From the IMG/VR virus record IMGVR_UViG_3300009071_000039, positions 1 to 29,911 of that record: a stretch of 29,911 nt of DNA. One strand, given 5' to 3'. This DNA is from a virus. Shown here one piece after another: positions 2,120 to 29,839 of this stretch. The position numbers and the translations under genes are program-made. The notes under the pieces are model-generated. The model was given only the letters and a program-made list of their open reading frames with translations. It searched no databases and was not told where the DNA came from. The stretch's first letter is position 1, and each line of letters opens with the position of its first letter.

Positions 2120-3133
2120 TTATAAACTCCTGTAAATCTCTAGTAATAGTTTGTTGTCATAAAACTCACTATCAATGTTTATAATTTGTTCTGTAACAAT
2201 CTGATCAACACTTTCAAACTTAATATCTCCTGGTTGCAGTTCTTCTTCTAATGCACTGCGTTTGTTTGGTATAAGTGCCATCTCACGCAGTTTGTATTTG
2301 GTTGCAAACTGTTCTTTGATGTAGTTTGCTTCTTCATAGGATATTTCTATGTCCAAGTTTACTCTAACATGCATGTTTGGTTTCAGTATAGTGTCAGCAT
2401 AGTCAATTACCTGTGAAAGGTCCAACACCTTGTACAATGGTTGATCCGGCCAAGCAATGTATTCTGGTTCTTTACCCCATTCAAGTATCATGCAACCACG
2501 TTGATCATCGCCTGCATCTGAAAAGTTGTGCGGAAATGCATTGCCGATATAGTTGATGTTGTTTTTCTGTTGACGCAAATGAAAGTGTCCACTAAACACT
2601 GTGCCATACTGCTGGAAGTGTTCTGATTTAATCTCACCGTGATCCGGCATTTCAACCATGGCATTCATCTTAAAGTGTGGCAGTTCAAAGTGTCCAAACA
2701 TATACCGAGCACTTGCAGTTTTTATCTGCTTGTGATCGTCACCAACCAGCCAAGGACATAGTATCACATCATCTTGTTCAAACCAATCGTTACATATTTT
2801 TAGATTTGGAATATGCTTTGCCCATTCAAAACTGTAGATGTCACGTTTGTCACGATAGTACAAGTCATGATTGCCAGTTATGAAATATGTTATATCAAAA
2901 CTACGAGAAAGGTTTTCTAATGCACGTAAACTGTGGTGCATGGTTTGCAAACTTAGACTGGCTCTGTGATGATGCCAGTCGCCCATGAATATTGCAGTCT
3001 CGCAGTTGTGTAACTTTCCTTGTTGTACTGCCCATTCAACAAATTGTTCACAGTCTTGATTGTGCATGATGCTATTGCTTTTCATGCCAAAGTGAATATC
3101 TGTAAACACGAGAGCTTTTTTAAACAAACCCAT
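2120..3133 (-). CDS. 47: Recombination endonuclease subunit gp47 (Mre11/SbcD-like nuclease)
   Basis: 337 residues, close to the size of T4 gp47. It is the metallophosphoesterase partner of gp46; together they process DNA ends during recombination-dependent replication, and T4 also needs them for host DNA breakdown. All phosphoesterase motifs are visible in order: DIH at 12-14, GDWHHHR at 51-57, GNHD at 87-90, GHFE at 147-150 and GHFHLRQ at 182-188, supplying the metal-binding Asp, Asn and His residues. The C-terminal third (about 240-337) is the expected capping and partner-binding region. The start has AGGA 7 nt upstream, partly overlapping the gp55 stop (8-nt gap), so it is co-transcribed and probably coupled with gp55. 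Confidence 0.95.
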   Translation of the reverse strand: MGLFKKALVFTDIHFGMKSNSIMHNQDCEQFVEWAVQQGKLHNCETAIFMGDWHHHRASLSLQTMHHSLRALENLSRSFDITYFITGNHDLYYRDKRDIYSFEWAKHIPNLKICNDWFEQDDVILCPWLVGDDHKQIKTASARYMFGHFELPHFKMNAMVEMPDHGEIKSEHFQQYGTVFSGHFHLRQQKNNINYIGNAFPHNFSDAGDDQRGCMILEWGKEPEYIAWPDQPLYKVLDLSQVIDYADTILKPNMHVRVNLDIEISYEEANYIKEQFATKYKLREMALIPNKRSALEEELQPGDIKFESVDQIVTEQIINIDSEFYDNKLLLEIYRSL

Positions 3134-3141
3134 GTGTATTC

Positions 3142-4032
3142 CTATTTTTTAGTCGCTTCTGGTTGTAGTTTTTTTGCATCTGGTGAGTTGTTAAACTGTC
3201 TTGTCCAACTTGGATTCAACCCATTTTGTTCAAGTATATCATCTCTTATGTTTTGGTTTTTCTTTTCTATGTTCAACACTCTGGTAAAACTATTTGTGAT
3301 GGTTGCGGTATAGTATGCAAATGGATTTTGCGACTTGCTCTCATCAAATTGTAGCCCAATTTGACTAAGTTGCAACAGTGCTTGTCCACGCATTTCTTCG
3401 TTATATGTATAACCACGCCAGTTTGACCTTGTTGCATAACGTTCACACAGTTTTATAAACATGTGTGCTAGTTTGTCTGTCATTTTGCCATGATCTTTTG
3501 AAAAATATCCGTTTTCCATACCACCAATCCAATGTGATTTGCCAACAACATATGGCACACGATTTTCATCAATCATGTAGTGCCAAAAAGGAGGAAAGTT
3601 TAATTTAACATAGTTGAGATCTTGTTCAACGTCGCTCATAAGTTCTTGTAATCCATCATCTTCGATGTCCACATCGTCCATTTCTAGAAGTTCTTCAAGT
3701 TTGGATTTTTTCTTTTGCTGTGCTTTGGTGAGTTTCTTTGGCACCATTGGGATATGATCCCAGCAAATTACTCTGAATACCAATTCTTGATTGTTAAGTT
3801 TAACAGGATCAACAATCTCGCCAGTTTCTCTTTTGATACGATCTGCTTTATTGCGTCTTGCTTCTGCAACAGTACGTTGATTAATTTTGTCAACACTTGG
3901 TAAAATTATATCATACTGTGCATATTCACGTTCTAAATATGAACAGAAAGTGTTTTTGCTTTTCCAAACTTCTTTCAGTATGTCTCTGTTGTTTAGATAG
4001 TTTACTTTTCTAGGTGTTCTCACCTGTGGCAT
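3142..4032 (-). CDS. 55: Late-transcription sigma factor gp55 with a large internal extension
   Basis: 296 residues against about 185 in T4. gp55 replaces host sigma-70 on RNA polymerase and recognises TATAAATA late promoters, with gp33 and the clamp gp45 as co-activators. Similarity to T4 gp55 as I remember it lies at both ends: NYLNNRDILKEVWKSK (11-26) matches the T4 YVNNKELL segment, and residues about 185-262 (KLAHMFIKLCERYATRSNWR, GYTYNEEMRGQALL, FDESKSQNPFAYYTATITN) match the sigma region-2-like core of T4 (GYT, FDE, K-NP-AY). Between them, about residues 30-180, is material absent from T4, including a charged Lys/Glu/Asp stretch (100-140). The C-terminal tail differs from T4's clamp-binding end. 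ATG at 4032 has AAGGAG 6-7 nt upstream and lies about 23 nt from the predicted early transcript start. Confidence 0.87.
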   Translation of the reverse strand: MPQVRTPRKVNYLNNRDILKEVWKSKNTFCSYLEREYAQYDIILPSVDKINQRTVAEARRNKADRIKRETGEIVDPVKLNNQELVFRVICWDHIPMVPKKLTKAQQKKKSKLEELLEMDDVDIEDDGLQELMSDVEQDLNYVKLNFPPFWHYMIDENRVPYVVGKSHWIGGMENGYFSKDHGKMTDKLAHMFIKLCERYATRSNWRGYTYNEEMRGQALLQLSQIGLQFDESKSQNPFAYYTATITNSFTRVLNIEKKNQNIRDDILEQNGLNPSWTRQFNNSPDAKKLQPEATKK

Positions 4033-10178: not shown

Positions 10179-12416
10179 ATGGCAAGTGAAAACTATCAAA
10201 GAAGTAGAGGCGTCCAATCTAACTATAAGCAAGATGTTGGAGGAACACCTGCTGAAAGCGGTCCGTTTATTGGAGAAGTTACAAATAATGTAGATCCAAC
10301 ACGCAGTGGTCGATTGCAAGTTTTTATAACACATTTAGCTGGTTCAGATAAAAACAATAAAAGTCTTTGGCGAACAGTAAGTTACCTAAGTCCTTTCTAT
10401 GGAGTTACGCAACAAAGTGCACCTCAACCTACAGGCCCGGGTAGTTTTACAGGTAATAATCAAAGTTATGGATTTTGGGGAACACCACCAGACTTAGGAA
10501 CAAAAGTATTGTGTTTCTTTGTAGATGGAGATCCAAGCAAAGGTTACTATATGGGTATGCCAATAGAACCTGGACTTAATCACATGCTACCAGCAATTGG
10601 AGCAAGTGACAAGTACGTAGATGATAGTAATAGTCCTCTGTTTGCAAACAAAAAAAAATTACCTGTGGTTGAGATCAATAATTCAAATCCTGCAATAAGT
10701 GAAAATCCAAGATTTTTTGAAGAAGTAAAACCAGTGCATAGTGTCCTTGCTGGACAAATGTTAGCACAAGGTGTAATAGCGGATCCACTGCTTGGACCTA
10801 TAACATCAAACAGTCAACGTGAATCTCCTAGTGCATGCTTTGGTATTAGTACTCCTGGGAGGGCAGTATACTCGGGTGGATTAACAGATGCACAGTTACA
10901 ACAAAAAATAAACAGTTCAACACTACAAGCAAATGAAGTTAATGTAATTGGCCGTAAAGGCGGACATAGTTTGGTAATGGATGACGGTAGTCAGGCCAAC
11001 GAAGACAATTTAATTAGATTGCGTACCAGTGGCGGACATCAGATAATGATGAACGATACACCCGATGGACAAACAATACATATTATGCATGCTAATGGAC
11101 AAAGTTGGGTTGAACTAGGCAAGGAAGGCACTATAGATGTCTATGCCTCAAATAGTTTAAACATAAGAAGTGCTGGTGAAATCAACATGCATGCAGATAA
11201 AAATATAAACATAAACAGTGAAACTGGCAGTATAAACATGCATGCAAAGACCTCTATGAGTTTGGAAAGTGCTGGTCTCAACCTCACAGGTACAAATAGT
11301 TTATTGGCCTATAGCAAAAGCATGATTGGATTGAAAAGCGACAGCTCAATGATGTTGAAAAGCAATACTGGAAGTTGGGGTGCTGGATCAGCACTTACAC
11401 TTGAAGCAGGTTGTATCAAACTAAACAGTGGATCTGCAGGCGATGTGCCCAAGGCTCAAGAAATTCCAAAACTTAGATTGCCTGATACAAAGTTCTCACC
11501 GCAACAAGGTTGGATACCCGAACCATCTGCAATAGAAACAATTGCCACAAGAGTACCAACTCATGAACCTTATGCTGAAAGAGGCACAGGAATAAACACA
11601 ACTACAAATTTGTCCAATACTAGTACGACGGTGCCTTTGGAGCCAAAAACACAAGAAGCAATCAACAAAACTGAAACTACAGAAATTAAAAAGATCGAAA
11701 AGGGCGATTATGAAAAGCAAGCCAATGCAACTAATAACGTTGGTAAAATACCGCCTGAAAAAGTAACAGGTATGTTGGCCCAATCTAGTAAACAAGTTGA
11801 GCAGAAGGCAAACGAAATATCAAACTCTAAAGGAGTAGGTAAATTTGGATTCAGTGCACCTGAACTAGAAGATGCTGGATTTTTAAAACCTGGTACCAGT
11901 GACTTCTTTTTGAAAGATGCTACCAGTGACCTCAGTACTGTTCTTAGCAGTTCAAGTGTATGGACCGGTAACCAAGGAATAAATGGTGTTAGTGATTTTC
12001 TAAACAATGAAACCATACAAGACATAACAAAAACTGATTTGTTCACCAAAGGACTTAATGGCTTGCAAAATGCAGGTGTTGTTACAGGCTTAGAAGACGA
12101 GGCTGATCTGGCTGGTTTAGTTAGTGGTGCTAGTAAGTTTGGAGTTGATGCTGTCAAAAAATGGACACAAGGTAGTGCAGTACTTGGTAAAACACTTAAT
12201 GGGGCACTAAGCGGAAATATCACTGCTGGACAAATGAATGAGCTCGTCAAAGGCGGACAGTATGCAGTTAATCTTACTACACAAAAAATCAGCAGTGAAA
12301 TACAAGGGTTTACCAAAGGATCATCAGGAGCAACTGGTACTGTAGTTCGTACTGAAATTGATACAGCAGTACAGTCAGTGATTGCTAGTCAAAAAGTCAC
12401 TGGAATAAGCACATAA
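10179..12416 (+). CDS. 5: gp5-like baseplate hub spike protein (OB fold plus beta-helix, no lysozyme domain)
   Basis: 745 residues, SD GAGG before ATG 10179. The N-terminus (about 25-135; GPFIGEVTNNVDPTRSGRLQ, VLCFFVDGDPSKGYYMG) is the gp5/VgrG OB-fold domain. A linker (about 135-250) contains RESPSACFGISTPGR. Residues about 252-420 are a spike beta-helix with short alternating strands (SGGHQIMMND, GEINMHADKNININSETGSI). T4 gp5 carries a lysozyme domain between OB fold and helix; none is visible here, and the linker is too short for one. A C-terminal extension of about 320 residues follows: a Thr/Lys/Glu-rich linker, then from about 552 a helical domain (GKFGFSAPELEDAGFLKPGT, VWTGNQGINGVSDFLN) that I recall from other phage tail proteins, resembling peptidoglycan-binding-like folds. 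It should form the membrane-piercing spike under the tail tube. Confidence 0.85.
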   Translation: MASENYQRSRGVQSNYKQDVGGTPAESGPFIGEVTNNVDPTRSGRLQVFITHLAGSDKNNKSLWRTVSYLSPFYGVTQQSAPQPTGPGSFTGNNQSYGFWGTPPDLGTKVLCFFVDGDPSKGYYMGMPIEPGLNHMLPAIGASDKYVDDSNSPLFANKKKLPVVEINNSNPAISENPRFFEEVKPVHSVLAGQMLAQGVIADPLLGPITSNSQRESPSACFGISTPGRAVYSGGLTDAQLQQKINSSTLQANEVNVIGRKGGHSLVMDDGSQANEDNLIRLRTSGGHQIMMNDTPDGQTIHIMHANGQSWVELGKEGTIDVYASNSLNIRSAGEINMHADKNININSETGSINMHAKTSMSLESAGLNLTGTNSLLAYSKSMIGLKSDSSMMLKSNTGSWGAGSALTLEAGCIKLNSGSAGDVPKAQEIPKLRLPDTKFSPQQGWIPEPSAIETIATRVPTHEPYAERGTGINTTTNLSNTSTTVPLEPKTQEAINKTETTEIKKIEKGDYEKQANATNNVGKIPPEKVTGMLAQSSKQVEQKANEISNSKGVGKFGFSAPELEDAGFLKPGTSDFFLKDATSDLSTVLSSSSVWTGNQGINGVSDFLNNETIQDITKTDLFTKGLNGLQNAGVVTGLEDEADLAGLVSGASKFGVDAVKKWTQGSAVLGKTLNGALSGNITAGQMNELVKGGQYAVNLTTQKISSEIQGFTKGSSGATGTVVRTEIDTAVQSVIASQKVTGIST

Positions 12417-12423
12417 ATACGTT

Positions 12424-12804
12424 ATGACATCAGTAATCGGATATAGCACAGTTGGCAGGTTTAAAAATTATACACTAACTGATTTTGAACTCATTAAAGC
12501 TGACCTCTTGAATGCACTTAATATAAGGCAAGGCGAAATGCCTGGCAGACCTGATGTTGGTACAACAATGTGGAGTCTAATATTCGAACCACAAAATGCA
12601 CAAACATCACAGGCTATAATCACTGAACTACAACGTGTTGTAGCACAAGACCCAAGAATAGAAATTTCAGATATAAATGTTTTTGCACAAGAAAATGGTT
12701 TTTTATGTGAACTTGAAGTACAAACCATTGCAGGACAGGATGCAAATACATTAACTGTATTCTTTGACAATCAACAACAACGAGCCGCATACTCAGACGT
12801 CTAG
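12424..12804 (+). CDS. 25: Baseplate wedge subunit gp25
   Basis: 126 residues, close to T4 gp25 (132). gp25 is a core wedge protein that helps start sheath assembly and is related to T6SS TssE. Seen: the N-terminal helix, QGEMPGRPDVGTTMWSLIFE at residues about 36-55, and a C-terminal strand pair. The EPR signature of the family reads EPQ here (FEPQN, 54-58), so the conserved Arg is replaced by Gln. No clear SD precedes ATG 12424, which lies 7 nt after the gp5 stop; translation is probably coupled to gp5. Confidence 0.9.
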   Translation: MTSVIGYSTVGRFKNYTLTDFELIKADLLNALNIRQGEMPGRPDVGTTMWSLIFEPQNAQTSQAIITELQRVVAQDPRIEISDINVFAQENGFLCELEVQTIAGQDANTLTVFFDNQQQRAAYSDV

Positions 12805-12855: not shown

Positions 12856-15800
12856 ATGGCTAAGACTACAAGACAAACTAGTATATTTGGGGTTGAGGAT
12901 TGGAAGAGAATTTACCAAACTTACCGCGAAGCAGACTTTCAAAGTTATGACTTTGAAACACTACGTAAGAGCTTTATAGACTACATTCGTTTATATTACC
13001 CAGAGAGTTTTAACGACTATATTGAGTCAAGTGAATTTATAGCACTGCTTGATGTTATGGCATTTATGGGCCAAGCTGGTAGTTTTAGAAATGACCTAAA
13101 CACAAGAGAGAATTTTATCGACACTGCTGAACGTAGAGACAGTGTCAATCGACTAGCAGAACTAGTAAGTTACACACCAAAGCGTAACACTGCAGCATCA
13201 GGCTTTTTAAAAGTACAAAGCATAAGCACCACAGAAGGTGTAGTTGACTTTACTGGTGTCAATTTATCAAATATCACAATCAATTGGAATGATACTACAA
13301 ATGCAAATTGGTTAGAACAATTCACAGTTATAATAAATGCAGCTTTGGATAACAGTCAGCGTTTTGGACGTCCAGCAAATTCACAAACTATACTAGGTGT
13401 CCAAACAGACGAATATGCTATAAATCTACTGCAAGGATTCTTGCCAGTGATACCGTTTACAAGCACAATAAACGGAACTTCAATGGGTTTTGAAGCAGTA
13501 TGTGCTACATCTCAAAACAAAACATATGTATACGAACCTTCACCTGCTCCAAATGGGGCATTTAACATATTGTATAGAAATGATAAACAAGGTTATGCTA
13601 GTGCAAACACTGGCTTTTTCTTTTTATTTAAACAAGGAAGTCTACAAGATTTAGATTTTAATTTAGGAGAAAGAATATCAAACAGGGTTGTAAATGTCAA
13701 CATCGAAGGAATCAATAACGAAGATGTTTGGTTATATCAACTTAATTCTCAAGGAAATATTGAGAATGAATGGGAATATGTTGAAAACATATACTCAGGT
13801 GCAGTTGAAGAGCTTACTCCTGAGCAACGTCGGTACTTTACAATAAGTTCTAGAACAAATGATCAAATCAATTTAAACTTTGGCGATGGCGTGTTTAGTA
13901 GCATACCAGTTGGCAGTTTCAGAACTTATGTACGTGCTAGTAACGGATTAAGTTATATTATCAATCAAGATGAGATGCAAAACGTAACTATCTCGATTGG
14001 CTATGTAAGTCGTACAGGTAGGAATGAAACACTTACTTTTACATGTGCTTTGACACAACCAGTAAGCAATGCCGCTAATAGAGAAAATATTAACGATATT
14101 AAACAACGTGCTCCTGCTAGATTTTATACGCAAAACAGAATGGTAAACGGTGAAGATTACAATAATTTTCCATATACACTTTATTCAACTATAATCAAGT
14201 CCAAAGCCGTAAACAGAAGCTCAATTGGTACTAGTAGATACTTGGATCTTGTTGATATCACTGGAAAATATTCAAGTACAAATGTTTTTGCTAGTGATGG
14301 CATGATATACGAAAATACTGCTGTGCCAAGTTTTACTTTTACATTTGTTGATCAAAATGATATTACTGATGTTATTGTTAATCAAGTTGAACCTGTAATA
14401 TCAAGTAGAGGAATGCAAGAGTTTTACTATCAAAACTTCACACGTCCTTCGTTAACAGTATTAAATCTAAACTGGAGCCAGAGTACCACAAGTAACAATG
14501 AAACCACTGGATTTTTTAGGTTTGTATCGAACAATGCACCTGCACCAGTTGGACCGCAGGCAAGTGACAATAAGAAATATATTGCTCAAGGCGGGCTGGT
14601 AAAATTTACTCCACCAACTGGACAATATTTTACTGCTACCAATAGGCTTGCAGTTGGATCTCCAACATTACCTGGTGATAAAATGGTGTTGTGGGCAACT
14701 GTTACTGCATTAGAACTTGATGGTACAAATTTTGGAGTTGGTAATAATGCTGATGGCACAGGTCCTGTAACACTTAATAATTTTATTCCAACTAATGCAA
14801 TTCCAACAGAGGTTATTCCAAACTTTATTACAGATTTACCAACCGCAATCGAAACCACAATGCGTGAAAACATTGAATTGTATCGAGATTTTGGATTAGG
14901 ATATAATAATTTAACCGGAACTTGGTATGTAATCACAACCACAAACTTAAATCCAGCCATTACTTTTAGTCTTACAAATGCACAAAACACTTCAGGTACA
15001 GGTTTAGACAATAGTTGGTTGGTTGCTTTTGAAACTGATGGAGTAACTTACACAGTAAGTTCACGTAGTTTACAGAGATTTTGGGCTAGTGTTTTAGAAA
15101 CACGGTTTTTCTATGATGGTACACAAAAAGTTTATGATCCAAAGACAGGCACAGTGATAAATGATTTTATTAATGTCTTAAAAACGAACAACTTACCCGA
15201 TAGCAGTGCAACACTTAACAGTGATGAAGTTTTAGACATTATTGACCAGCCTGTAGAAGCAGATGGTTTTGTAGATGACTTTAGAGTCAGAATATCATAC
15301 AAAGATTCTGACAATGACGGTATACCAGACAATCCAGATTATTTTCAAACACTTGTTGCTCCAACTGTCAACCCGAACAACAAGAGAATCTATTTGCAAC
15401 AGACAATTGACTTTGATAACTTAGAAAGATATTTGCCATTAGCAGAAGGTGTGGTAATTGGTTCTTTTGCAACAAAATCTGCAATTGAACTTGTGAAAAG
15501 CGAGTATGCAGACAAGCAAGTGTTTTATGCATATACAGACGAAAAGTTCTATCAACTGACAGTTGACTATGAAGGAACAAGAACTATAGTACTAGTAACT
15601 GGATACCAAACATATACAGGAAGGCAGGGATTGTATTTTCAGTATCGCCACAATGCTCCGTTGAGTAGACGTATTGATCCAGGCACAACAAATATCATTG
15701 ATTTGTATCTAGTAACACAATCATATTATATTGCTTATCAAAATTACATACGCGACAGTACAGGAACTGTAACTGAACCAACAAAACCTACAATCGACGA

Positions 15801-16263
15801 ACTAACAACTAGTTATAGTACACTTGATCAATACAAGATGATCAGTGATAATATTATTTTAAATAGTGTAACTTTTAAACCGTTGTTTGGAACAAAAGCA
15901 TCAGTTGAACTACAAGCCACTATCAAGTGTGTAAAAAATACATCAAGTACTGCCAGTGTTAGTGAAATTAAAAGTCAAGTTGTTAGTGCAATGAACACTT
16001 ATTTTACTATAGAGAACTGGGATTTTGGTGATACGTTTTTCTTTAGTGAGCTAAGTGCATATTTACATGACAGATTAGGAAGTATTATTAGTTCGGTGGT
16101 ATTAGTACCAACTGATCCTCTTAAATCGTTTGGTGATTTATATGAAATACGCTCACAAGCAAATGAGATATTTGTTAATGCAGCCACAGTTAACGATGTA
16201 CAGGTAATTGATGCACTTACTGGTACGCAGTTGCGAACTGCACCAAATAGCGGAGTAGTCTAA
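12856..16263 (+). CDS. 6: Baseplate wedge subunit gp6
   Basis: 1135 residues against 660 in T4. gp6 dimers form the ring that holds baseplate wedges together and triggers the shape change at contraction. The N-terminal signature is clear at about residues 55-120: SSEFIALLDVMAFMGQAGSF, RNDLNTRENFIDTAERRDSV, LVSYTPKRNTAASG. The C-terminal domain (about 1000-1135; VSEIKSQVVSAMNTYFTIEN, WDFGDTFFFSELSAYLHDRL) is the gpJ/gp6-like dimerisation region. The additional middle, about 500-900, is beta-rich and contains a calcium-loop motif DSDNDGIPDNPD at 817-828. SD AAGGA lies 7 nt before ATG 12856 and a late promoter just upstream. It ends one base before the giant gene begins. Confidence 0.93.
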   Translation: MAKTTRQTSIFGVEDWKRIYQTYREADFQSYDFETLRKSFIDYIRLYYPESFNDYIESSEFIALLDVMAFMGQAGSFRNDLNTRENFIDTAERRDSVNRLAELVSYTPKRNTAASGFLKVQSISTTEGVVDFTGVNLSNITINWNDTTNANWLEQFTVIINAALDNSQRFGRPANSQTILGVQTDEYAINLLQGFLPVIPFTSTINGTSMGFEAVCATSQNKTYVYEPSPAPNGAFNILYRNDKQGYASANTGFFFLFKQGSLQDLDFNLGERISNRVVNVNIEGINNEDVWLYQLNSQGNIENEWEYVENIYSGAVEELTPEQRRYFTISSRTNDQINLNFGDGVFSSIPVGSFRTYVRASNGLSYIINQDEMQNVTISIGYVSRTGRNETLTFTCALTQPVSNAANRENINDIKQRAPARFYTQNRMVNGEDYNNFPYTLYSTIIKSKAVNRSSIGTSRYLDLVDITGKYSSTNVFASDGMIYENTAVPSFTFTFVDQNDITDVIVNQVEPVISSRGMQEFYYQNFTRPSLTVLNLNWSQSTTSNNETTGFFRFVSNNAPAPVGPQASDNKKYIAQGGLVKFTPPTGQYFTATNRLAVGSPTLPGDKMVLWATVTALELDGTNFGVGNNADGTGPVTLNNFIPTNAIPTEVIPNFITDLPTAIETTMRENIELYRDFGLGYNNLTGTWYVITTTNLNPAITFSLTNAQNTSGTGLDNSWLVAFETDGVTYTVSSRSLQRFWASVLETRFFYDGTQKVYDPKTGTVINDFINVLKTNNLPDSSATLNSDEVLDIIDQPVEADGFVDDFRVRISYKDSDNDGIPDNPDYFQTLVAPTVNPNNKRIYLQQTIDFDNLERYLPLAEGVVIGSFATKSAIELVKSEYADKQVFYAYTDEKFYQLTVDYEGTRTIVLVTGYQTYTGRQGLYFQYRHNAPLSRRIDPGTTNIIDLYLVTQSYYIAYQNYIRDSTGTVTEPTKPTIDELTTSYSTLDQYKMISDNIILNSVTFKPLFGTKASVELQATIKCVKNTSSTASVSEIKSQVVSAMNTYFTIENWDFGDTFFFSELSAYLHDRLGSIISSVVLVPTDPLKSFGDLYEIRSQANEIFVNAATVNDVQVIDALTGTQLRTAPNSGVV
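15304..15339 (+). other. EF-hand/thrombospondin-3 type calcium-loop motif in gp6
   Basis: Encodes DSDNDGIPDNPD (gp6 residues 817-828), with Asp at loop positions 1, 3, 5, 9 and 12 and Gly at 6, the pattern of calcium-binding loops. Confidence 0.75.
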
Positions 16264-19200: not shown

Positions 19201-22200
19201 CTTTCGTGCATTAGAATTCAACAGTGCAGAATATGGAAAAACTAAAAATAAAATTCTTGATTTTGTAGCAAACAACGATTGGTCAGGAAAGTCAACTGCA
19301 TATATTCTTGACACCACACTTACTACAATAAATGCAGGTAAAGATGCAAATGCACCTTTTTACTGGACTGATTCTGTACCTTGTGGTAATGTATTTGAAA
19401 CAACCACATACACTTTTAGTGCAATATCAACATATACATTTGATACTTTGTATAGCTATGACTTCACAACTGCAAATTATAACGGTATTTTAGTATACCT
19501 TACTCCAAAAGCAACTGGAAAGCAAACACAATTAATAGGAGACGGCGAAGAATACACAGTTGCAACAGATGGACCAAGAATTACAATCAACAGCAGTACC
19601 GTTACTCTAGAAATTGGTGATATAATTACCATTAGAGAATATACTGCCACATATGGAAGTTATGTTCCTGCAACTCCTAGTATGCTTGGACTATATCCAG
19701 TATATCTGCCACAATCCTTTGTAGACAACACCTATGTAACTCCTACTACTGTGATTCAAGGTCATGATGGAAGTTTAACCGTTGCATGGGAAACAGGTGA
19801 TTATAGAAATGACGTCCTACTAGAACTAGAAAAACGCATATACAACAATATAAAAATTAATTCTGCTGAAAAATACGACCCACCATTGAGAGCAAGTGAT
19901 GTTATTCCAGGACAATTTAGAACAACTGACTACACGCTAACAGAAGTTAATAATATCCTTAATGTAAGTTTTCTTGCCTGGGTTGGTGCAAACAGAGTAA
20001 ATTACAAGGACCAATCATATGATGCTGATAATCAGTTTACTTGGAACTACTCTAATAGCTCAAATCGTCTCGATAATGATCCACTGTTAGGATTCTGGAG
20101 AGGCATATATTTTGATCTCTATGACACTGATAGCCCACATACACGTCCTTGGGAAATGGTAGGACTTAGTGTACGACCAAGTTGGTGGAATACTAAATAT
20201 GGCCCAGCTCCATATACATCAGGAAACCTTGTGTTGTGGAACGACATGGCCAAAGGTATTATTGCGTACCCAACAGGCGATGTTGTAGTTAAAGAATTTG
20301 TACGTCCACAATTGCTCGACTGCTTACCAACTGATAGCCAAGGAAACCTTGTAAGTCCAATGCAAAGTATAGTTGGAAGCTATGATCAAAGTAGTTTTGT
20401 TAAAAGTTGGGTAGCAGGAGATTTTGGACCAACACAAACTGCTTGGAGAAGAAGCAGTTACTATCCTTTTGCAATTCAAAGATTACTTGCATTATGTGAA
20501 CCAGCAAAATATTTTAGCTTATTTGCAGACAGAGATCTATACAAATACAACACTGAATTCAATCAGTACTTGTATAACAATAGATTTAGAATTGATCCAG
20601 CACAGGTTTCAGTATACGGTAATGGAATAATCAAAAATAGTTACATCAACTTTGTAGTTGATTATAACAGAGTCACTGGTACTGATAGCACAGTTTTAGT
20701 TACTGATAAACTTGCGAATCTTAATGTTAGATTGTGCTATAGAATGGCATCATTTAGTGATAAGAGTTATTTAAAAATATTTGCAGAAAAATCATCACCA
20801 AACAGTTTAAACAGTAGTTTGCTACTGCCCGATGAAAGCTTCAACTTGTACCTATATCAAAATCCAAGTTTTAGTGAAATCCAATACAGTGCAGTAACAG
20901 TACAAAGGACAACAAACGGATACTCAGTAAATGGATATAGTACTACGAAACCATATTTTGAGATACTGCAAAGTGTTCCAACTGGTAAGTTTACCAGTAT
21001 CGATGTTAACGGTCAGCAAAGTAGAATTAATAATACCTATACAAATAATGTCGTACAAGTACCTTATGGTTATGTGTTTACAAGTACTAATTCAGTTGTT
21101 GATTTTCTCACAAGTTATGGAGCATACCTTGATAAACAAGGACTAACATTTGACAGTCAAGTAAACGAAACAATAGTTGACTGGACACAAATGGCAAGAG
21201 AGTTTTTGTATTGGGTTGGTCAGAGTTGGACAGTTGGTAGTCTTATAAACTTGAATCCTGGTGCTGATATACTCAAGCTAAAGCAGAATTTTGCAGTTGT
21301 TGAAAGTTTAAAAAACGAAAATATAAATGACATAATGCTTGATCAAAACTTTGAACCTTTGTTTGGAAAAGACTATGCAGTTGAAAGATTAGACAACGAA
21401 TTAAAACTAATTGGTTTGAACAATCAAACATTCAGTTTTCTAAATGCTAGATTTACAAGTTACGAGCACATAATTGTTTTTGACAACACAACTATTTTTA
21501 ATGACCTAATTTATAACCCTATTACTGGTGCTAGACAAAACAGGTTGTTACTGAATGGAAATACTGTTTATGAATGGAACGGCACTTTAGATGCACAAGG
21601 TTTTATTTTAAATCAAGACAATATCAAGGAATGGGTGCCAAATCAACCATATACAAAAGGTCAAATTGTTTTATACAAAGAAGCATATTGGAGTGCTACA
21701 AGACTGTTACCACCAAATCCAGAGTTTGTTTTTGCTGATTGGATAAAAAGTGACTTTGATAGAATACAAACTGGCTTACTACCAAATATTGCAACCAAAG
21801 CAGATGCTCAAAGAGAAAACTATGATATACATACTGCAAATTTAGAAAGTGATTCAACGTTACTTGGTTTAGGATTAATTGGGTTTCGTCCGAGACAATA
21901 TATGCAGAACTTGAACCTTGATGATATTTCTCAAGCAGGTTTGTACTCACAATTTTTAGGAACAAAAGGTACTATTCGTGCTGCTGAACAACTAAAAAGT
22001 GCAAACCTTGGCAAAGAAGAAGCTGAGTATGAAATTAAAGAAAATTGGGCAATACAACGTGGTATCTATGGTGCTAATGCAAATAGAAGTTACTTTGAAC
22101 TTAGGTTAGATGAAAGCAAATTACTTGCTAATCCAAGTACAGTAGCAGTTGTTGACCCTGGAGACATAACTACTGCTAATCAAGAAATACTGATCAATAA

Positions 22201-25200
22201 TATTTGGAAACAAAGTTATAAGATTACTAATAAAAATATATTACCCACTGTAGCAACTATTCCTGAGGATAGAGCATTACCAAGTGCAGGTTATGTAAAT
22301 TATGATGATGTAGATATTAAAGTTTTTGACTTTGATGATTTAACCAATGTTGTAGCTAACTTAGATAAGATTGCAATAGGTACAAATGTTTGGGTTGCAA
22401 AAGCTAACTCATTTGATTGGAACATTTATCGAAATAATCTATTGAATGCCTCTTTGGAAATTGTAGTTGACAACTTAAATGACACATGTACTCTTACATT
22501 CAATACCAATCACAATTTGTCTGTTGGTAAAAGATTTGTAATTAAATATTTTGACGATGATGTTGATGGCGCATATATTGTAAACAGTATACCATCACTG
22601 AAAACCATTGTGATTTCTTTGAGCCTACCTGGTGACATAACTTCACTCACAGGAGATGGTTTAGTTCTTACTCTTGAGAGTGTTCGTGTTGCACAAACAA
22701 GTGATGTAGCAGATCTAAGTTTTGTAAACAATATTGTAACGGGCAATCAAGTTTGGGTTGACAATTTTGGCGACGATAAATGGGCAGTGTTACAAAAAAT
22801 TAATCCTTTTGGAACATCTACTGAACTAGACGCAGATGCTCCTATAATCAATGACCTCTACGGAACAACTGTTGAGCAGGGATTGGTTGGACAAGGGTTA
22901 GCTATTGGTGCACCGGGTTATGGTAGCGGAACTGGTGCAATTTACTGTCTTAACAAATCTGATACAAATACATACAAGCAAGTTGCCATAATGACACCTG
23001 GAGCTACTGGATTTTCAGGAGTTGGCACAAGTTTAAGCGTTGGTAATAATGAGCGTATAGTTACAGGTGCTCCTGCTAGTGATAGTAATAAAGGTTATGC
23101 ACTTGGCTTAAGACGTAATTCTTCAAATGGTACCTACACACAAACACAATTGTTCAACACAGGAACCAACAATGTTGATAATTTTGGACAGAGTGTTGCA
23201 GTAAGCGATGATGAACGTTGGTTGTACATTAGTGCTCCAACTGCAACTGCAAGTAGCAACTATGTGTACGCTTATCAGCAAATTGGTGTACAAGATCAAA
23301 CAATAGAATACACCGCAAACGGTACAACCACTGATTTTATTATCACAGGTACTATTGTTGTAAGTTCTGTGAATTCAACTGCTGAAACACAAATTGGAGT
23401 TACTCGTAATAATGTATCGCAAACAGTTACAACTGAGTATACGGTAGAAACTGTTGGTGGCAATCAAGTTGTAAGATTTGTAACTGCTCCAAATGAAAAT
23501 GATGAAATTAGAATAACTAGAAAACAAAGTGTTACCTATCTACCTAGTGTTCTTACCACAACTTTTTCAACTGCTACAGTGTTTAGCGTAACAGACATTT
23601 ACAGTTTTGCAGTGTATTATAATGGTGAATTATTACGTCCAATACATGATTACACATTTGCCGCAAACACAGTTACTTTGTTGTCCGGGATAAGCTCCGG
23701 AGCTCTTTTAATAAGTGCTAAAACATATTGGGATTTTGTAGCAAACATAAACATTTCAGGAAGTGTTGGCGATTTAATCGGACAAAGTATCTCCACAACC
23801 ACAGATGGTAGACAACTTATAATTGGTGCACCAGGATCAGATGTTACTGTGGGCTCGACTACAACTACCGACGCTGGTAAAGTTTATATCTATGATAGAA
23901 GTGTACAACGGTTTCAAGTTACTACTGCATCAACAACAACACAAAATTTTACAACAACAGATACTCCAGTAGGCACACCAGTTGTAACTGTAAATGGAAC
24001 ATACTTGATTCCTACTGCACAAAATAACAATTCACAATTCAGTCACTCAGGAACTACAATAACAATTGGTACTGCAACCAACCCCTACACACTGAATGTT
24101 GGCGACATTATTGAAGTTGAAACAAACACATTTAGATTGGTACAAACAATTAATTCACCAACACCTGGCGAAGAGTATAATTTTGGACAAGTGGTAGATA
24201 TGTGTTCAACCAATTGTAGTTTGTACATTGCAGAGCCAAATGATAGCACTATTACAGTTCAAGGCGGTAGTGTTGATAGATGGATTAATCAAAGCAGATT
24301 GTTTGGCACAATCACAGGAACTGAAACAAATCCCGTGCTTACTGCTACAGACAGTATAAGAATTAACAATTATTATGTCACACTCACTGGTACAACAGTT
24401 GCAAGTTTGGTTACGGATATAACAAATGCAGATATACCAAATGTTTCAGCTAGTGAAGTAAATGGTGCGTTACAAATAAATCTCACTAACATACAAGCAG
24501 GTGAAGAATTTATTAAATTACAAGTAGCACCAGGTAATGGAACTGCATTTGCAGATCTTGGTCTTGCTCAAATGGTGTTTGCACAGACTATTGTATCACC
24601 TGTAAAACAAAATTACGGTCACTTTGGTGAAAGTGTTAAGATCGATAGCACCGCAACTACTCTGGTAGTCGGTGCACCAGATGCTACTGCCAACCTTCCA
24701 ACAACATTTGACAATAACACCACGTACTTTGACAGCAAAAGTACAAACGTTATTGATTCGTTATCAGAATCAGGAGTTGTCTACACCTATAACTTCCTAA
24801 ACGCTGCAAACGCAAGTGCAACCAACCCAGGCAAATTTGTTTTTGGGCAACAATTGTATGACACCAGTATGGTTAGTTTTGACAAGTTTGGCAGTGCGGT
24901 TGATTACTATGACGGTGTTCTTCTAGTTGGTGCTCCTAACGATGATTTAGATGACAGTTCGGGCAATTATGGCAGAGTAACTCAGTTTGTAAATGCCAAT
25001 AAAGAATCTGCTTGGAAAGTTGTGTATAGCCAACAACCAATTGTTAACAGTGCATTATTGAATAGTGTTTTTACTTACAGCAAAGTCACAAATGAAGTTG
25101 ATACCTATCTTGACTTTATTGATCCATTACAAGGCAAAATACTTGGTTCAGCAAGTGCAAATATAAACTACACTGGCGGAATTGATCCTGCTGCTTACAA

Positions 25201-28200
25201 CACAGGCACAGTTAACAACTTTGGTTCACAGTGGAGAGATGAACACCTAGGAGAATTTTGGTGGGATTTAAGCACAGTAAGATTTATTGATTATCATCAA
25301 GACAACATAGAATATAAAGCAAGAAGATGGGGACAATTATTTCCAGGATCTACAGTAGACATTTATCAATGGACAAAAAATTCAGTAGCTCCTGCTGATT
25401 ATTCAGGCCCAGGCACAGTATACACAACTGAAAGTTATGTTGTTACAAGTAATTTAGATAGTGCAGGTACTTTTGTTACCAATTATTACTACTGGGTAAA
25501 AGGTTTAACTGCTATTCCGGCAAACAAGACACTGAGTTCAAATTCTATAACACAATACATTGCTGATCCAAGATCAAGTGGAGTATCTTATAGTGCTGCA
25601 CTTAGCCCAAGCACCATTGGTTTATATAATGTTCGTTCACAATTGGTTGCAAAAGATACTATACTACATGTAGAATTTGATAAACTTGAAAATACTGATG
25701 CTGTTCATAGCGAATATGATCTAATTACTACAAAGGATGCAAACAGTTTTCTTGGTACTGGACTTTACAGAAAGTTTTTAGACAGTTACTGTGGCATCGA
25801 TACGCTTGGAAATATTGTGCCAGACCCAACACTTTCTATTGCCGACAGATATGGTGTTGCTTTTAGACCAAGACAAAGTTTCTTTATAGACAGATTTCTT
25901 GCACTTGAAAATTACATGGTCCGTGCAAACAGAATAATGAAACAGTATCCTATTTCAGAGTCTAAGAGTTTTAGGTTACTGAATAGTGAAGATCCAGAAC
26001 CCACAAGCGTTAGTGGTTTATGGGATAAAAAACTCGCAACTTACGCTGAACTTACCTACCAAGATCTTAGACAGGTTCCAATTGGTTACAACTACCTAGT
26101 GCAGAGTGATAGTACACAAGAAGGCATGTGGACAATCTATACTGTGATTGCTGGTCCAAGTTTACAATTGGCAAGAGTGCAAAATTATGATACCAAGTTG
26201 TACTGGAGTTATGTAGACTGGAATGGAACAAATGCCGACGGGACCACCTATAGTGCGGCAAATGCCAGTGCATACGAAGTCGCAGTCTACAGTAACCTAC
26301 TAGCCCTTGAAAATGTAAGCGACGGCCAATGGGCAACTGTACTAGCAAATAGCTTTGGTAAGCGTGAAGTATATCAATATAGCACAACAACCAGTGAATG
26401 GACCAGAGTTTTCTTAGAAGATGGAACAATTGCAGTTGATAAAACTATTTGGGATTATTCAGTTGGAAACTTTGGTTTTTCAGTTGAGGCCTTTGATGCA
26501 CAACGTTTTGCACAAGCACCAGACGTTGAAACCAGACAAATTCTTAAAGCACTTAATGAAGAAATATTTACAAATGAACTAAAAATATTCCGTAATGAAT
26601 TGTTAATATTGACATTTGAATACATAATGTCAGAACAATCTGCTCCAGACTGGCTTATCAAAACTTCATTGATTGATGTAAATCATAAAATTAGAGATCT
26701 CAAAGAGTATCCAATATTTAGAAGAGACAACCAAGACTTTGTAAGTCAATATATTGAAGAAGTAAAACCATATCATGTACAGGTCAGAGAATTTAATTTA
26801 CGCTATGAAGGCGAAGATACCTATAACGGAAGCGTTACTGACTTTGATCTTCCTGCATACTATGATGCAACTCTTAATCAATTTGTTTCGCCTATACTTG
26901 ACGATAGCCAGTTTCCAAAAAGTTTAAGTGCAGTTCCTAGTACTTCGAGTGTCTGGACAACCTTTCCGTGGAGCCAATGGTATAATAACTACAAGTTACA
27001 AGTAAAAAGTGTCACAGTAATCAATGGTGGTTCAGGTTATACTCTAGCACCTGAAGTGGTTGTTACTGGCGATGCAACAACTCAAGCAACAATGACTGCC
27101 ACTGTTAACACTGCTGGTGTTGTTACAAGGATTAACGTAATTACTCCAGGAAGTGGTTATACAACTACTCCAACTGTTACTATATCAGGCGGTAATGGAA
27201 CAGGAGCAACTGCGGTTGTTGTTTTAGAACCACAACAGGTGCGTGACTTTACAACAACAATAAAATACGATAGAATTACATACACAAGTACTGTAAAAGA
27301 TTGGACTGCAAATACTGCATTTATTGCGGGCGAGCTAGTAAGATATCCGGTACCAACTGTTGGTGTTGTAAATGTAAGTTTACCAGAAGTATATAGTGTT
27401 ACTGCAAATTTCACAAGTGGTACAACATTTGATCCAGATAATTATACAAAAGTAGATCAATCAACTCTTGATGGTGCAGATAGAACAATTGGTTTGTACA
27501 CACCAGAACCAAATGAACCTGGTCGTGAACTTGCACAAGTTATGACAGGCATTGATTATCCTGGTGTACAAGTTGATGCACCAGACTTCGATGAAAACAC
27601 AGGTTATGATATTGGAAACTTTGATATCACACCTTATGATAATATTGACTTTGGTCCAGAGGGGTTGCCTACATATGATCCTGCAATATTAGATGTTATC
27701 TACGAAAGTTCTTTTACAGATACCTACTTAGGAACAAGAGCAACAGATATAAATGTTGATGGCGGTGCGTTTGTTGACACATACAGTTCGCATGCTCCAG
27801 AAGAATTGTTACCTGGGAGTGAATTTGATACACTTGATCTTAAAGTTTTTACTCGTCCAGGCAGTGACTGGAGCAGTGATGGTCATGGATTTGATATTGC
27901 AACAACTAATGTTACTTTTAATGGATCTGGCACAACAGTCGACTTTTCAAGTCAAATGCTACATCCAGTAGGCATAAAAGTAATTGATCTAAGTAGCGGA
28001 CAAGGTATTGGAACTACAGATTATTCTGTTAACTGGGTATCAAAAACTGTGTCACTTGGTGCAAGTATACCAAGTTCTATTGGAGACATAATATCAGTTA
28101 AGGTTTTTGGTCTAGGTGGAGGTTCACAGTTATACAAAGAAAGTATCATAGGCACTGATGTTGTAGCAAACACTTCTACTATACCTGTGGTGTTCAGTCA

Positions 28201-29839
28201 AATTGAAGAGCTAGTAATTTTTGTAAATGGTACAATTATTACAGATTACACTTTTGCCGCAAGTGGTAGTTTTGCAACTGCAATTACTTTTACAAGTTCC
28301 TATGGTGCCAGTGATTGGATTACATTCATAGCTCTCGGAGCAACAACACCAACACAGTATTCATGGAGTACGCCTCAAGTACAATATATTACATACGATG
28401 GTTCAAGTTTACTTGACAATCTAACAAACAGTATAGAGGGCACAAATCCTGCTAACTTAATAGTAGAACGTGAAGGGCTTAGGTTACGTCCGTCAGAAGG
28501 AATAGAATACACTGCTGATGGTTCAAGTGCTGGTCCATATTATATAAGCACTACAGGAAAAACAAATCAAGCTCTGATTGCAGATAATGATATACTTGTA
28601 TACGTAGATGGCGTAAAAAAGAATCTAGCAGTAGATTGGAATCTAAGCACATGGGATGGATCCAGTGATAGATATGTAGAATTTACATCAGGAAGTTTGC
28701 CAGAAGCAAACCAAAATATCAAGATCTTTACAACCACAGACGCCGATTATGTGTTGCTCGGTGACCAGATTGACCTACGTGTAAGTGCAATTGCTAATGC
28801 TCAGTTTGCAGTTACAACTTTCAATGACACAATGCAACAGAACATTATAACCAAAGTGTTTGTTGGTCCAACCACAAGTGGTGTAACAACATCGGTTGCA
28901 TACGATGAGGATGCTTATGATGAGAGCACTTTTGATGAGACAGTTGGTGTTACTGTGGACACAAATATTTTTAATCTTGGAAGAATTGTAACCAGTCCAG
29001 AGAGATTGATTGTAACACTTAATGGTCAGTTTATTAGTCAATCAGAGTTTACCCTTTCAGAAGGAGGTGTCACTACTACTCTAACACTAGATCGACCAAT
29101 TATAAGCAATGTTGATGTAGTAGTTGCAACTATTTTTACAAATACAGTAGTTCCAAATAGCCTTAATTTTAGAATTTTCCAAGACATGTTAGGCAACCAA
29201 AAGCTATTGAGAATGAACACTAAAAACACAACTCAACTTGCACAGGATCTTGCAATAACTGATGATACAATTTACATTAAAGATGCAACAAAATTAAGCG
29301 AACCAAATCTCGAAGCTAATATATTTGGACAACTCATAGTTGGCGGAGAGCGTATTACCTATAGAATAAGAAATACTAGCAACAATACTGTAAGTGATCT
29401 CAGAAGAGGAACTTCAGGTACTGGTGTGTATGCACATAGTTCGGGTGCTAGTGTAAGTGATGTTGGACCAGGTGAGCAGTTACCAGCAACCTATCAACAA
29501 AAAACAACCACAGACAAAACCAACGAGGGAGACGGCTCAACAAAAGTTTTTACAACATCGATTGTCATTCCTACACTTGTAGATAGCACTGAATTGTCTG
29601 ATGCAATCACAGTAACAGTTGCAGGCACTGTGCTAGTGCCAGAAACTGATTATACAGTAACACAAGTAAACACGACAACCACTGAAGTAACTTTAACTAC
29701 TGCACCAGCAGACGGAGTAGAAGTTTGGTTTAGTCAGGTTACTGCTAACGTAATGTATGCACAAGGCGCTGGTACTGCAAGTAACGGTATACCTTTGCAA
29801 GATCAAAAAACACCAGCAGTAGAATTCTTAAAGAGTTAA
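16265..29839 (+). CDS. Giant virion structural protein in the gene 7 position (baseplate/tail)
   Basis: One uninterrupted frame of 4524 residues, roughly 0.5 MDa. Start ATG 16265, one base after the gp6 stop, with GGAG 9 nt upstream. The N-terminus (SEDFLPEIFQTPANKQLLRS, TLDQLTQNPKL, GYIGRKIGPGV, VNFGQYYWVAAGP; 1-145) matches very large structural proteins I recall from marine T4-like phages. Further visible parts: FWRGIYFDLYD and SWWNTKYGPAPYTSG near 1280-1320; seven FG-GAP blades (2206 to about 2910); VKPYHVQVREF (about 3500); paired GSGYxxxP repeats (3587-3642); an Asp-rich piece with DGGAFVDTYSSHAPEELLPG (about 3829-3850); and repeated VxVNGxxL...DYT modules, concentrated after 3980. The C-terminus ends LQDQKTPAVEFLKS. 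Position after gp25-gp6 is that of T4 gene 7, the 1032-residue wedge protein, but I cannot show homology. Likely roles are wedge scaffold and host contact. Confidence 0.85.
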   Translation: MAKRIRSEDFLPEIFQTPANKQLLRSTLDQLTQNPKLKPTEGYIGRKIGPGVTASDSYVLEPTQTRTNYQLEPGVVQTNDNGTEIKNTITYPGIIDSLALQGSNTTRDDRLFDSEYYSFDPMVDFDKYVNFGQYYWVAAGPDSVSVFANAIPIRASYDVKYENTGYTFSGYSGTLPTISLARQGEYNFNVSDTGRNFWIQSQPGTSGVLSQQPNQSSRDVLGVTNNGDDFGTVTFNVPSNTAQNFYFTLTDIGATDLVASTLNFNQINNQYVDVFLAANGGIDGITDLQNRTLIFVGGQSDGWADEEPFDSQGFDNTVFSDTDPIDGNANRLVQWRINYNYADPERPFMELTKVQSIANLSKTVIEYGTSNAGKTWYKNADGVFELQPLITANLDILYYQDASDELNFGVIRLVDQENLSDLNVDEDIVGKATYTSPNGVVFTNGLKVEFTGAIVPNSYEGKEYYVEGVGSAIELLPVTDFVTPETYTVSATTPFDSLAYDVGGYDATANAPTQQDYMTINRASIDKNAWSRSNRWFHIDVLRSTATYNNVTLVIDNNARAKRPILEFRKNLKLINGGTEGITPVDIIDFSQENAFQNVNGSIGYSVDGYTLIAGSRIIFANDNDPQVKNKIYTVSFVDLKDGSAPTIDLQAASLTSPEVPINSNLVVLSGITEQGKSYYFNGTSWIKGQQKTDTNQAPLFDVFDPNGYSYSDTSVYPSTTFQGTKIFSYAVGTGTTDTIIDQPLKYSSINNVGDIVFDNNLYTDTFTYVVNASSSTQKIDTGLIRQYNTRTTFNKLLGWQTHFNTSVQRQSFTFDYTGLPLVLDIPVITDTSQVPVKVFVDGQFVLPDTYTYTTNADNVTEITFNPNVTGEPNTDPPVGTVVEAQVLSNSASTIGFYTVPSNLESNPMNKNSEGFTLGTIRTHYETICQNLEDFTGKIHGANNLRDLGNVVPYGQLILQQSSPLTMMTPFINGRDTEFFRALEFNSAEYGKTKNKILDFVANNDWSGKSTAYILDTTLTTINAGKDANAPFYWTDSVPCGNVFETTTYTFSAISTYTFDTLYSYDFTTANYNGILVYLTPKATGKQTQLIGDGEEYTVATDGPRITINSSTVTLEIGDIITIREYTATYGSYVPATPSMLGLYPVYLPQSFVDNTYVTPTTVIQGHDGSLTVAWETGDYRNDVLLELEKRIYNNIKINSAEKYDPPLRASDVIPGQFRTTDYTLTEVNNILNVSFLAWVGANRVNYKDQSYDADNQFTWNYSNSSNRLDNDPLLGFWRGIYFDLYDTDSPHTRPWEMVGLSVRPSWWNTKYGPAPYTSGNLVLWNDMAKGIIAYPTGDVVVKEFVRPQLLDCLPTDSQGNLVSPMQSIVGSYDQSSFVKSWVAGDFGPTQTAWRRSSYYPFAIQRLLALCEPAKYFSLFADRDLYKYNTEFNQYLYNNRFRIDPAQVSVYGNGIIKNSYINFVVDYNRVTGTDSTVLVTDKLANLNVRLCYRMASFSDKSYLKIFAEKSSPNSLNSSLLLPDESFNLYLYQNPSFSEIQYSAVTVQRTTNGYSVNGYSTTKPYFEILQSVPTGKFTSIDVNGQQSRINNTYTNNVVQVPYGYVFTSTNSVVDFLTSYGAYLDKQGLTFDSQVNETIVDWTQMAREFLYWVGQSWTVGSLINLNPGADILKLKQNFAVVESLKNENINDIMLDQNFEPLFGKDYAVERLDNELKLIGLNNQTFSFLNARFTSYEHIIVFDNTTIFNDLIYNPITGARQNRLLLNGNTVYEWNGTLDAQGFILNQDNIKEWVPNQPYTKGQIVLYKEAYWSATRLLPPNPEFVFADWIKSDFDRIQTGLLPNIATKADAQRENYDIHTANLESDSTLLGLGLIGFRPRQYMQNLNLDDISQAGLYSQFLGTKGTIRAAEQLKSANLGKEEAEYEIKENWAIQRGIYGANANRSYFELRLDESKLLANPSTVAVVDPGDITTANQEILINNIWKQSYKITNKNILPTVATIPEDRALPSAGYVNYDDVDIKVFDFDDLTNVVANLDKIAIGTNVWVAKANSFDWNIYRNNLLNASLEIVVDNLNDTCTLTFNTNHNLSVGKRFVIKYFDDDVDGAYIVNSIPSLKTIVISLSLPGDITSLTGDGLVLTLESVRVAQTSDVADLSFVNNIVTGNQVWVDNFGDDKWAVLQKINPFGTSTELDADAPIINDLYGTTVEQGLVGQGLAIGAPGYGSGTGAIYCLNKSDTNTYKQVAIMTPGATGFSGVGTSLSVGNNERIVTGAPASDSNKGYALGLRRNSSNGTYTQTQLFNTGTNNVDNFGQSVAVSDDERWLYISAPTATASSNYVYAYQQIGVQDQTIEYTANGTTTDFIITGTIVVSSVNSTAETQIGVTRNNVSQTVTTEYTVETVGGNQVVRFVTAPNENDEIRITRKQSVTYLPSVLTTTFSTATVFSVTDIYSFAVYYNGELLRPIHDYTFAANTVTLLSGISSGALLISAKTYWDFVANINISGSVGDLIGQSISTTTDGRQLIIGAPGSDVTVGSTTTTDAGKVYIYDRSVQRFQVTTASTTTQNFTTTDTPVGTPVVTVNGTYLIPTAQNNNSQFSHSGTTITIGTATNPYTLNVGDIIEVETNTFRLVQTINSPTPGEEYNFGQVVDMCSTNCSLYIAEPNDSTITVQGGSVDRWINQSRLFGTITGTETNPVLTATDSIRINNYYVTLTGTTVASLVTDITNADIPNVSASEVNGALQINLTNIQAGEEFIKLQVAPGNGTAFADLGLAQMVFAQTIVSPVKQNYGHFGESVKIDSTATTLVVGAPDATANLPTTFDNNTTYFDSKSTNVIDSLSESGVVYTYNFLNAANASATNPGKFVFGQQLYDTSMVSFDKFGSAVDYYDGVLLVGAPNDDLDDSSGNYGRVTQFVNANKESAWKVVYSQQPIVNSALLNSVFTYSKVTNEVDTYLDFIDPLQGKILGSASANINYTGGIDPAAYNTGTVNNFGSQWRDEHLGEFWWDLSTVRFIDYHQDNIEYKARRWGQLFPGSTVDIYQWTKNSVAPADYSGPGTVYTTESYVVTSNLDSAGTFVTNYYYWVKGLTAIPANKTLSSNSITQYIADPRSSGVSYSAALSPSTIGLYNVRSQLVAKDTILHVEFDKLENTDAVHSEYDLITTKDANSFLGTGLYRKFLDSYCGIDTLGNIVPDPTLSIADRYGVAFRPRQSFFIDRFLALENYMVRANRIMKQYPISESKSFRLLNSEDPEPTSVSGLWDKKLATYAELTYQDLRQVPIGYNYLVQSDSTQEGMWTIYTVIAGPSLQLARVQNYDTKLYWSYVDWNGTNADGTTYSAANASAYEVAVYSNLLALENVSDGQWATVLANSFGKREVYQYSTTTSEWTRVFLEDGTIAVDKTIWDYSVGNFGFSVEAFDAQRFAQAPDVETRQILKALNEEIFTNELKIFRNELLILTFEYIMSEQSAPDWLIKTSLIDVNHKIRDLKEYPIFRRDNQDFVSQYIEEVKPYHVQVREFNLRYEGEDTYNGSVTDFDLPAYYDATLNQFVSPILDDSQFPKSLSAVPSTSSVWTTFPWSQWYNNYKLQVKSVTVINGGSGYTLAPEVVVTGDATTQATMTATVNTAGVVTRINVITPGSGYTTTPTVTISGGNGTGATAVVVLEPQQVRDFTTTIKYDRITYTSTVKDWTANTAFIAGELVRYPVPTVGVVNVSLPEVYSVTANFTSGTTFDPDNYTKVDQSTLDGADRTIGLYTPEPNEPGRELAQVMTGIDYPGVQVDAPDFDENTGYDIGNFDITPYDNIDFGPEGLPTYDPAILDVIYESSFTDTYLGTRATDINVDGGAFVDTYSSHAPEELLPGSEFDTLDLKVFTRPGSDWSSDGHGFDIATTNVTFNGSGTTVDFSSQMLHPVGIKVIDLSSGQGIGTTDYSVNWVSKTVSLGASIPSSIGDIISVKVFGLGGGSQLYKESIIGTDVVANTSTIPVVFSQIEELVIFVNGTIITDYTFAASGSFATAITFTSSYGASDWITFIALGATTPTQYSWSTPQVQYITYDGSSLLDNLTNSIEGTNPANLIVEREGLRLRPSEGIEYTADGSSAGPYYISTTGKTNQALIADNDILVYVDGVKKNLAVDWNLSTWDGSSDRYVEFTSGSLPEANQNIKIFTTTDADYVLLGDQIDLRVSAIANAQFAVTTFNDTMQQNIITKVFVGPTTSGVTTSVAYDEDAYDESTFDETVGVTVDTNIFNLGRIVTSPERLIVTLNGQFISQSEFTLSEGGVTTTLTLDRPIISNVDVVVATIFTNTVVPNSLNFRIFQDMLGNQKLLRMNTKNTTQLAQDLAITDDTIYIKDATKLSEPNLEANIFGQLIVGGERITYRIRNTSNNTVSDLRRGTSGTGVYAHSSGASVSDVGPGEQLPATYQQKTTTDKTNEGDGSTKVFTTSIVIPTLVDSTELSDAITVTVAGTVLVPETDYTVTQVNTTTTEVTLTTAPADGVEVWFSQVTANVMYAQGAGTASNGIPLQDQKTPAVEFLKS
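22880..24990 (+). other. FG-GAP (integrin-like) beta-propeller region, seven blades, in the giant protein
   Basis: Seven blade-like units, each with an FG/VG-x-S/G turn followed about 10-15 residues later by (G/S)AP or AEP: residues about 2206 (GLVGQGLAIGAPGYG), 2249 (GVGTSLSV...GAPASDS), 2305 (NFGQSVAV...ISAP), 2503 (LIGQSIST...IGAPGSD), 2638 (NFGQVVDM...AEPNDS), 2786 (HFGESVKI...GAPDAT) and 2873 (KFGSAVDY...GAPNDDL). Insertions separate blades 3-4, 4-5 and 5-6. Confidence 0.8.
27023..27190 (+). repeat. Tandem GSGYxxxP repeat in the giant protein
   Basis: NGGSGYTLAPEVVVTG (from residue 3587) and PGSGYTTTPTVTISGG (from residue 3628) are two copies of a glycine-turn beta repeat of about 40 residues, common in phage tail proteins. 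Confidence 0.8.

Follow-up and report, generated by a model that had tools for sequence, protein, structure and literature searches.

A giant protein of 4,524 residues, encoded in the window (the 29,911-nucleotide stretch, positions 1 to 29,911 of IMG/VR virus record IMGVR_UViG_3300009071_000039, analyzed here), contains a predicted seven-bladed FG-GAP β-propeller. The alignments place it between two conserved parts of the protein body, in a slot where other members of the family have short linkers or unrelated sequence. We put at roughly one in two the probability that, as an accessory domain on the rim of the phage baseplate, the propeller displays its modules outward for first contact with the host surface. 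What appears to be new is the presence of a propeller in the slot of a giant jumbo-phage virion protein, the stepwise insertions in its C-D loops, and a recurring hairpin in blade 6. Coordinates are given in Table 1.

Table 1. Positions in the window of the giant gene, its baseplate-type neighbors, and the parts of the propeller
Feature	Residues	Window position	Strand	Remarks
gp5-like baseplate hub and tail lysozyme		10179..12416	+	phrog_13211, 2.5e-32
gp25-like baseplate wedge subunit		12424..12804	+	phrog_43, 6.7e-12
gp6-like baseplate wedge subunit		12856..16263	+	phrog_10646, 5.5e-278
Giant ORF, 4,524 aa		16265..29839	+	Homologue of jumbo-phage "virion structural protein" phrog_10938
Conserved body, N-terminal of slot	1131-1965	19655..22159	+	Alignment; 24-28% identity over long stretches with cultured jumbo-phage homologues
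Host strands QVWVDN..WAVLQK	2162-2180	22748..22804	+	Just before propeller; motif also in propeller-free relatives
Predicted seven-bladed FG-GAP β-propeller	2199-2922	22859..25030	+	FG...GAP motifs, alignment, AF2/DSSP strands
Blade 1		22859..22993	+	AF2/DSSP strands
Blade 2		23021..23155	+	AF2/DSSP strands
Blade 3, insert in C-D loop		23183..23749	+	AF2/DSSP strands
Insert 3, two VNGxxL/DYT modules	2343-2487	23291..23725	+	Fastest-evolving part of propeller
Blade 4, insert in C-D loop		23777..24154	+	AF2/DSSP strands
Insert 4, one VNG module	2552-2622	23918..24130	+	
Blade 5, insert in C-D loop		24182..24595	+	AF2/DSSP strands
Insert 5, Flagellin_IN-like module	2677-2766	24293..24562	+	Conserved; Flagellin_IN match in L002 orthologue, entropy
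Blade 6		24623..24856	+	AF2/DSSP strands
Blade-6 B-C hairpin TTFDNNTTYFD		24686..24769	+	Found in most relatives examined, also in those without insertions
Blade 7		24887..25030	+	AF2/DSSP strands
Conserved body, C-terminal of slot	2922-3230	25028..25954	+	

Seven FG-GAP units and the predicted fold

The FG...GAP units lie at residues 2215 (YG..IGAP), 2268 (VG..TGAP), 2323 (FG..ISAP), 2521 (IG..IGAP), 2656 (FG..IAEP), 2803 (FG..VGAP), and 2889 (FG..VGAP); a regular-expression search over all 4,524 residues found none outside the propeller region. When the region was shuffled 5,000 times, 4,685 of the shuffles contained no unit, 308 contained one, and 7 contained two, the maximum, against seven observed. 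All seven FG and GAP columns keep their form when the window is aligned with 58 environmental relatives, which are 37 to 82% identical to it. The seven units proposed in the sequence-only reading are thus borne out. GAP-to-GAP spacings are 53, 55, 198, 135, 147, and 86 residues; five of the values proposed earlier agree within one residue, but the first, given as 43, was wrong. The earlier limits, residues 2206 to 2909, were also too narrow: they left out the FG motif of the first blade and cut blade 7 short. The Pfam model FG-GAP_2 (PF14312), which describes propellers from bacteria and viruses, scores 34.6 bits in the window (cutoff, 23) and is above the cutoff in two relatives, L240 and L249, as well. 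Compared with those propellers, the one in the window is embedded in a giant protein of the jumbo-phage baseplate region and carries stepwise C-D insertions.

AlphaFold2, run on the 59-sequence alignment, gave a model with a pLDDT of 89.9 and a pTM of 0.85, in which seven successive A-B-C-D strand sets form seven four-stranded units. A Foldseek search of the PDB with this model returned mostly integrin alpha heads, with E values of about 1e-7 to 1e-8, target-normalized TM-scores up to about 0.58, and rmsd values near 10 Å; the superposition is probably upset by the inserts, which add roughly 300 residues. L240, a relative without C-D insertions, gave a model (pLDDT 85.9; pTM 0.83) with 28 strands in seven sets; its top PDB match by Foldseek is integrin alpha-5 (TM 0.53/0.60; E, 6.7e-13), and it also matches the WD40 proteins CIAO1, WDR5, and WDR61 (TMt 0.70 to 0.78), which we take to be seven-bladed. 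The ring may be closed: Foldseek matched the models to closed seven-bladed propellers and the pTM is high, although the TM-scores are moderate. The models of the window and L240, together with Foldseek, support the seven-bladed, integrin-like propeller predicted earlier. A reading with eight blades was set aside because the extra strand before blade 1 belongs to a motif that also occurs in relatives without the propeller; each of the three slots with a count of eight hits has one match merely 25 to 28 residues from its neighbor.

The predicted propeller resembles that of integrin alpha in blade number, FG and GAP positions, and fold, and both can carry inserted domains. Integrin alpha has Ca2+-binding DxDxDG loops in several blades, however, whereas the slot of the window has no match to them; the phage propeller is therefore integrin-like in fold and blade number but is not an integrin, and the earlier label of integrin type holds to that extent. 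In integrins the alpha-I domain is inserted between blades 2 and 3, while the phage inserts are in C-D loops, and a very large body surrounds the phage propeller. Identity in structural alignments is about 8 to 17%, and profile and single-sequence searches of PDB sequences found no significant relative of the propeller; for integrin alpha, the best E value of the profile search was 0.082 and the single-sequence search gave nothing. The "hemagglutinin" of phage Atu_ph07 (A0A2L0UZX4) and a protein of cyanophage S-TIM5 (H6WG31) match the fold over about 400 residues (TMt 0.62 to 0.64), but these are separate stand-alone proteins, too short for inserts, whereas the window propeller is a domain inside a giant protein.

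Insertions in blades 3, 4, and 5

The C-D loops of the window propeller have 147 residues in blade 3, 63 in blade 4, and 94 in blade 5, against 5 to 11 in the other blades. The sequence-only reading had placed insertions at three blade junctions; there are indeed three, but they lie inside the blades rather than between them. Its assignment of VNGxxL/DYT modules to the insertions is right for inserts 3 and 4 but not for insert 5, which is a different, Flagellin_IN-like domain. The Flagellin_IN match was seen in insert 5 of the L002 orthologue (E, 2.8e-4, just under the Pfam cutoff); no significant match was found in insert 5 of the window itself.

Among 61 slots with seven hits, the distance from blade 3 to blade 4 clusters near 50, 110 to 140, 180 to 209, and 250 to 317 residues, that from blade 4 to blade 5 near 55 and 113 to 143, with one at 206, and that from blade 5 to blade 6 near 50, 140 to 159, 190 to 229, and 250 to 270; the other three junctions are nearly constant, with few outliers. 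Module counts obtained with HMMs fit the length of insert 4 (0, 1, or 2 modules) and, roughly, that of insert 3, a module-for-module match of length and count being only approximate. The longest variants of insert 3 hold a further, apparently different domain. The VNG module family recurs at about residues 3976 to 4487 of the giant protein. The C-terminal segment at 27026 to 29725 of the window (residues 3588 to 4487) contains GSGYT-type repeats (3589 and 3629) and further VNG/DYT modules; similarity to the GSGYT-repeat region is found at several points of the Atu_ph07 homologue, its slot among them.

The columns of insert 3 have a higher entropy than those of the blades (P values of 0.0003 and 0.024 for its two modules); the blades are not exceeded by insert 4 (P = 0.16) or by insert 5, whose entropy is lower (P = 0.20). 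For each close relative examined, nonsynonymous divergence (dN) from the window is 1.35 to 1.94 times as high in insert 3 as in the blades, a comparison in which all relatives are measured against one reference and are not independent. The dN of insert 5 is above that of the blades in the closest relatives and below it in the more distant of the close relatives. Blade dN/dS is about 0.05 to 0.15. No sign of positive selection was found: with dS saturated, every computable omega value lies under 1; the figures for the inserts are therefore rates and not evidence of such selection. The variable insert domains expected earlier thus reduce to step-like lengths and a fast-evolving insert 3; hypervariability of all inserts was rejected, since the variability of inserts 4 and 5 does not exceed that of the blades.

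The slot and its distribution among relatives

Across its conserved body the giant protein matches the PHROG profile phrog_10938 with an E value of 1.6e-301, and its homologues include PA5oct gp355, Atu_ph07 gp180, SCTP-2 140, and 121Q 582. These cultured giants share with the window a collinear conserved body and the gene neighborhood, but no FG-GAP match was found in any of their four slots, which between the flanks used measure about 217 residues in 121Q, 328 in PA5oct, 518 in SCTP-2, and 1,543 in Atu_ph07. In propeller-free environmental relatives, the motif VWVDN..W.VY, which precedes the propeller, is almost directly joined to the sequence that follows it; the propeller is therefore a domain placed into an existing body. 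A weak match to CBM_5_12 (chitin-binding type), below the Pfam cutoff, was seen at 21629 to 21694 of the window (residues 1789 to 1810) and in the PA5oct, Atu_ph07, and SCTP-2 homologues.

At least 595 environmental contigs encoding the giant-protein family turned up when the conserved body was used for scanning. We examined 112 distinct slots, a biased sample drawn from the 80 best matches to each of two queries: 62 had seven blade hits, 22 had six, 14 (the four cultured phages among them) had none, and the rest had other counts. Lower counts are partly due to missed weak units, as in L249, which scored six but has seven by eye. Most of the environmental members examined thus carry the propeller, and the four cultured phages examined do not. 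Two relatives, L192 and L194, have slots of about 1,514 to 1,520 residues in giant proteins of more than 5,800 residues; six to seven blades were hit there, and large additional segments are present. A tblastn search of 50,697 phage records with the propeller gave no match, and a literature search, from which subscription papers were mostly absent, found no paper in which FG-GAP appears together with jumbo phage or with both phage and baseplate.

Baseplate context and possible roles

The window and cultured jumbo phages share a gene order of SbcC, SbcD, a late sigma factor, structural genes, the gp5-like, gp25-like, and gp6-like genes, and the giant gene. Between the SbcD-like and SbcC-like genes, two overlapping minus-strand ORFs in different frames (1028 to 1675 and 1572 to 2057) span 1028 to 2057 of the window; they gave no clear family match and may be one protein split by a frameshift. 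The giant gene directly follows the gp6-like gene, the position of the gp7 gene, but hhalign with the single T4 sequence found no similarity to gp7, the probability being below 1% in all regions, as for other T4 baseplate proteins. Synteny would place the giant protein in the baseplate. Its homologue PA5oct gp355 was detected in the virion by mass spectrometry, and in the jumbo coliphage phAPEC6, gp245, a 382-kDa virion protein found by mass spectrometry, adjoins the wedge protein gp244 (PMC7247149, Table 1); by size and position, gp245 is presumably an orthologue. The baseplate context suggested earlier is thus supported by the neighboring genes and by the detection of homologues in virions (PMC7247149).

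On the predicted fold, the modules of blades 3, 4, and 5 would share one face, since a propeller has all its C-D loops on the same side; B-C loops are on the opposite face, where the blade-6 hairpin would lie. The hairpin probably contacts the body or a neighboring virion protein, which would make its face the attached side and the insert face the displayed one.

The propeller most likely serves as an accessory platform at the periphery of the baseplate, for display or for docking. In the display reading, the C-D modules at the baseplate edge would face outward, with insert 3 as the outermost and fastest-changing part, and their most likely use would be first contact with a glycan or protein of the host surface; a putative receptor- or glycan-binding role is plausible. 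A slot that cultured relatives leave empty or fill in another way, insert lengths that change in steps, the higher dN of insert 3, the baseplate synteny, and the detection of homologues in virions all argue for display. Against host contact, the cultured relatives do without the propeller, the virion position is read from synteny only, positive selection left no sign, and the conservation of inserts 4 and 5 equals that of the blades, a pattern that suits structural docking equally well. Docking is the main rival and a quite possible one: the propeller and its modules would bind tail fibers or neighboring wedge proteins and never touch the host. Some propellers of other phage tails have a structural role, as in nozzle proteins; the blade-6 hairpin and inserts 4 and 5 are conserved, and further VNG modules are present toward the C terminus of the giant protein, as would be expected of general virion building blocks. 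A fast-evolving insert 3 and a module number that varies freely between relatives would, however, be unusual for a fixed internal interface.

The breadth of slot content and length in the family, from about 217 to more than 1,500 residues, is what neutral accretion would produce if the slot tolerated any inserted domain and the propeller had no specific role. We consider this improbable given the constraint on the blades, the retention of seven blades in diverse lineages, and the conserved hairpin. Some phage tail propellers are glycosidases (endosialidases), but an enzymatic propeller that cleaves a surface polymer is highly improbable here, since integrins and WD40 scaffolds make up most of the matches and lactonase-type enzymes match more weakly. 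A more specific form of the display reading, which we offer tentatively, is a phage analogue of the integrin head, in which a fixed seven-bladed propeller would use three neighboring C-D loops as sockets that gain and lose whole modules and would so provide jumbo phages, at the edge of the baseplate, with a host-contact surface able to evolve.

If outward display is correct, one of the largest uncharacterized phage virion proteins would gain a function-bearing domain, and the natural series of relatives with no propeller, a bare propeller, and one to several modules would offer a view of how host-contact surfaces are built and altered in giant phages.
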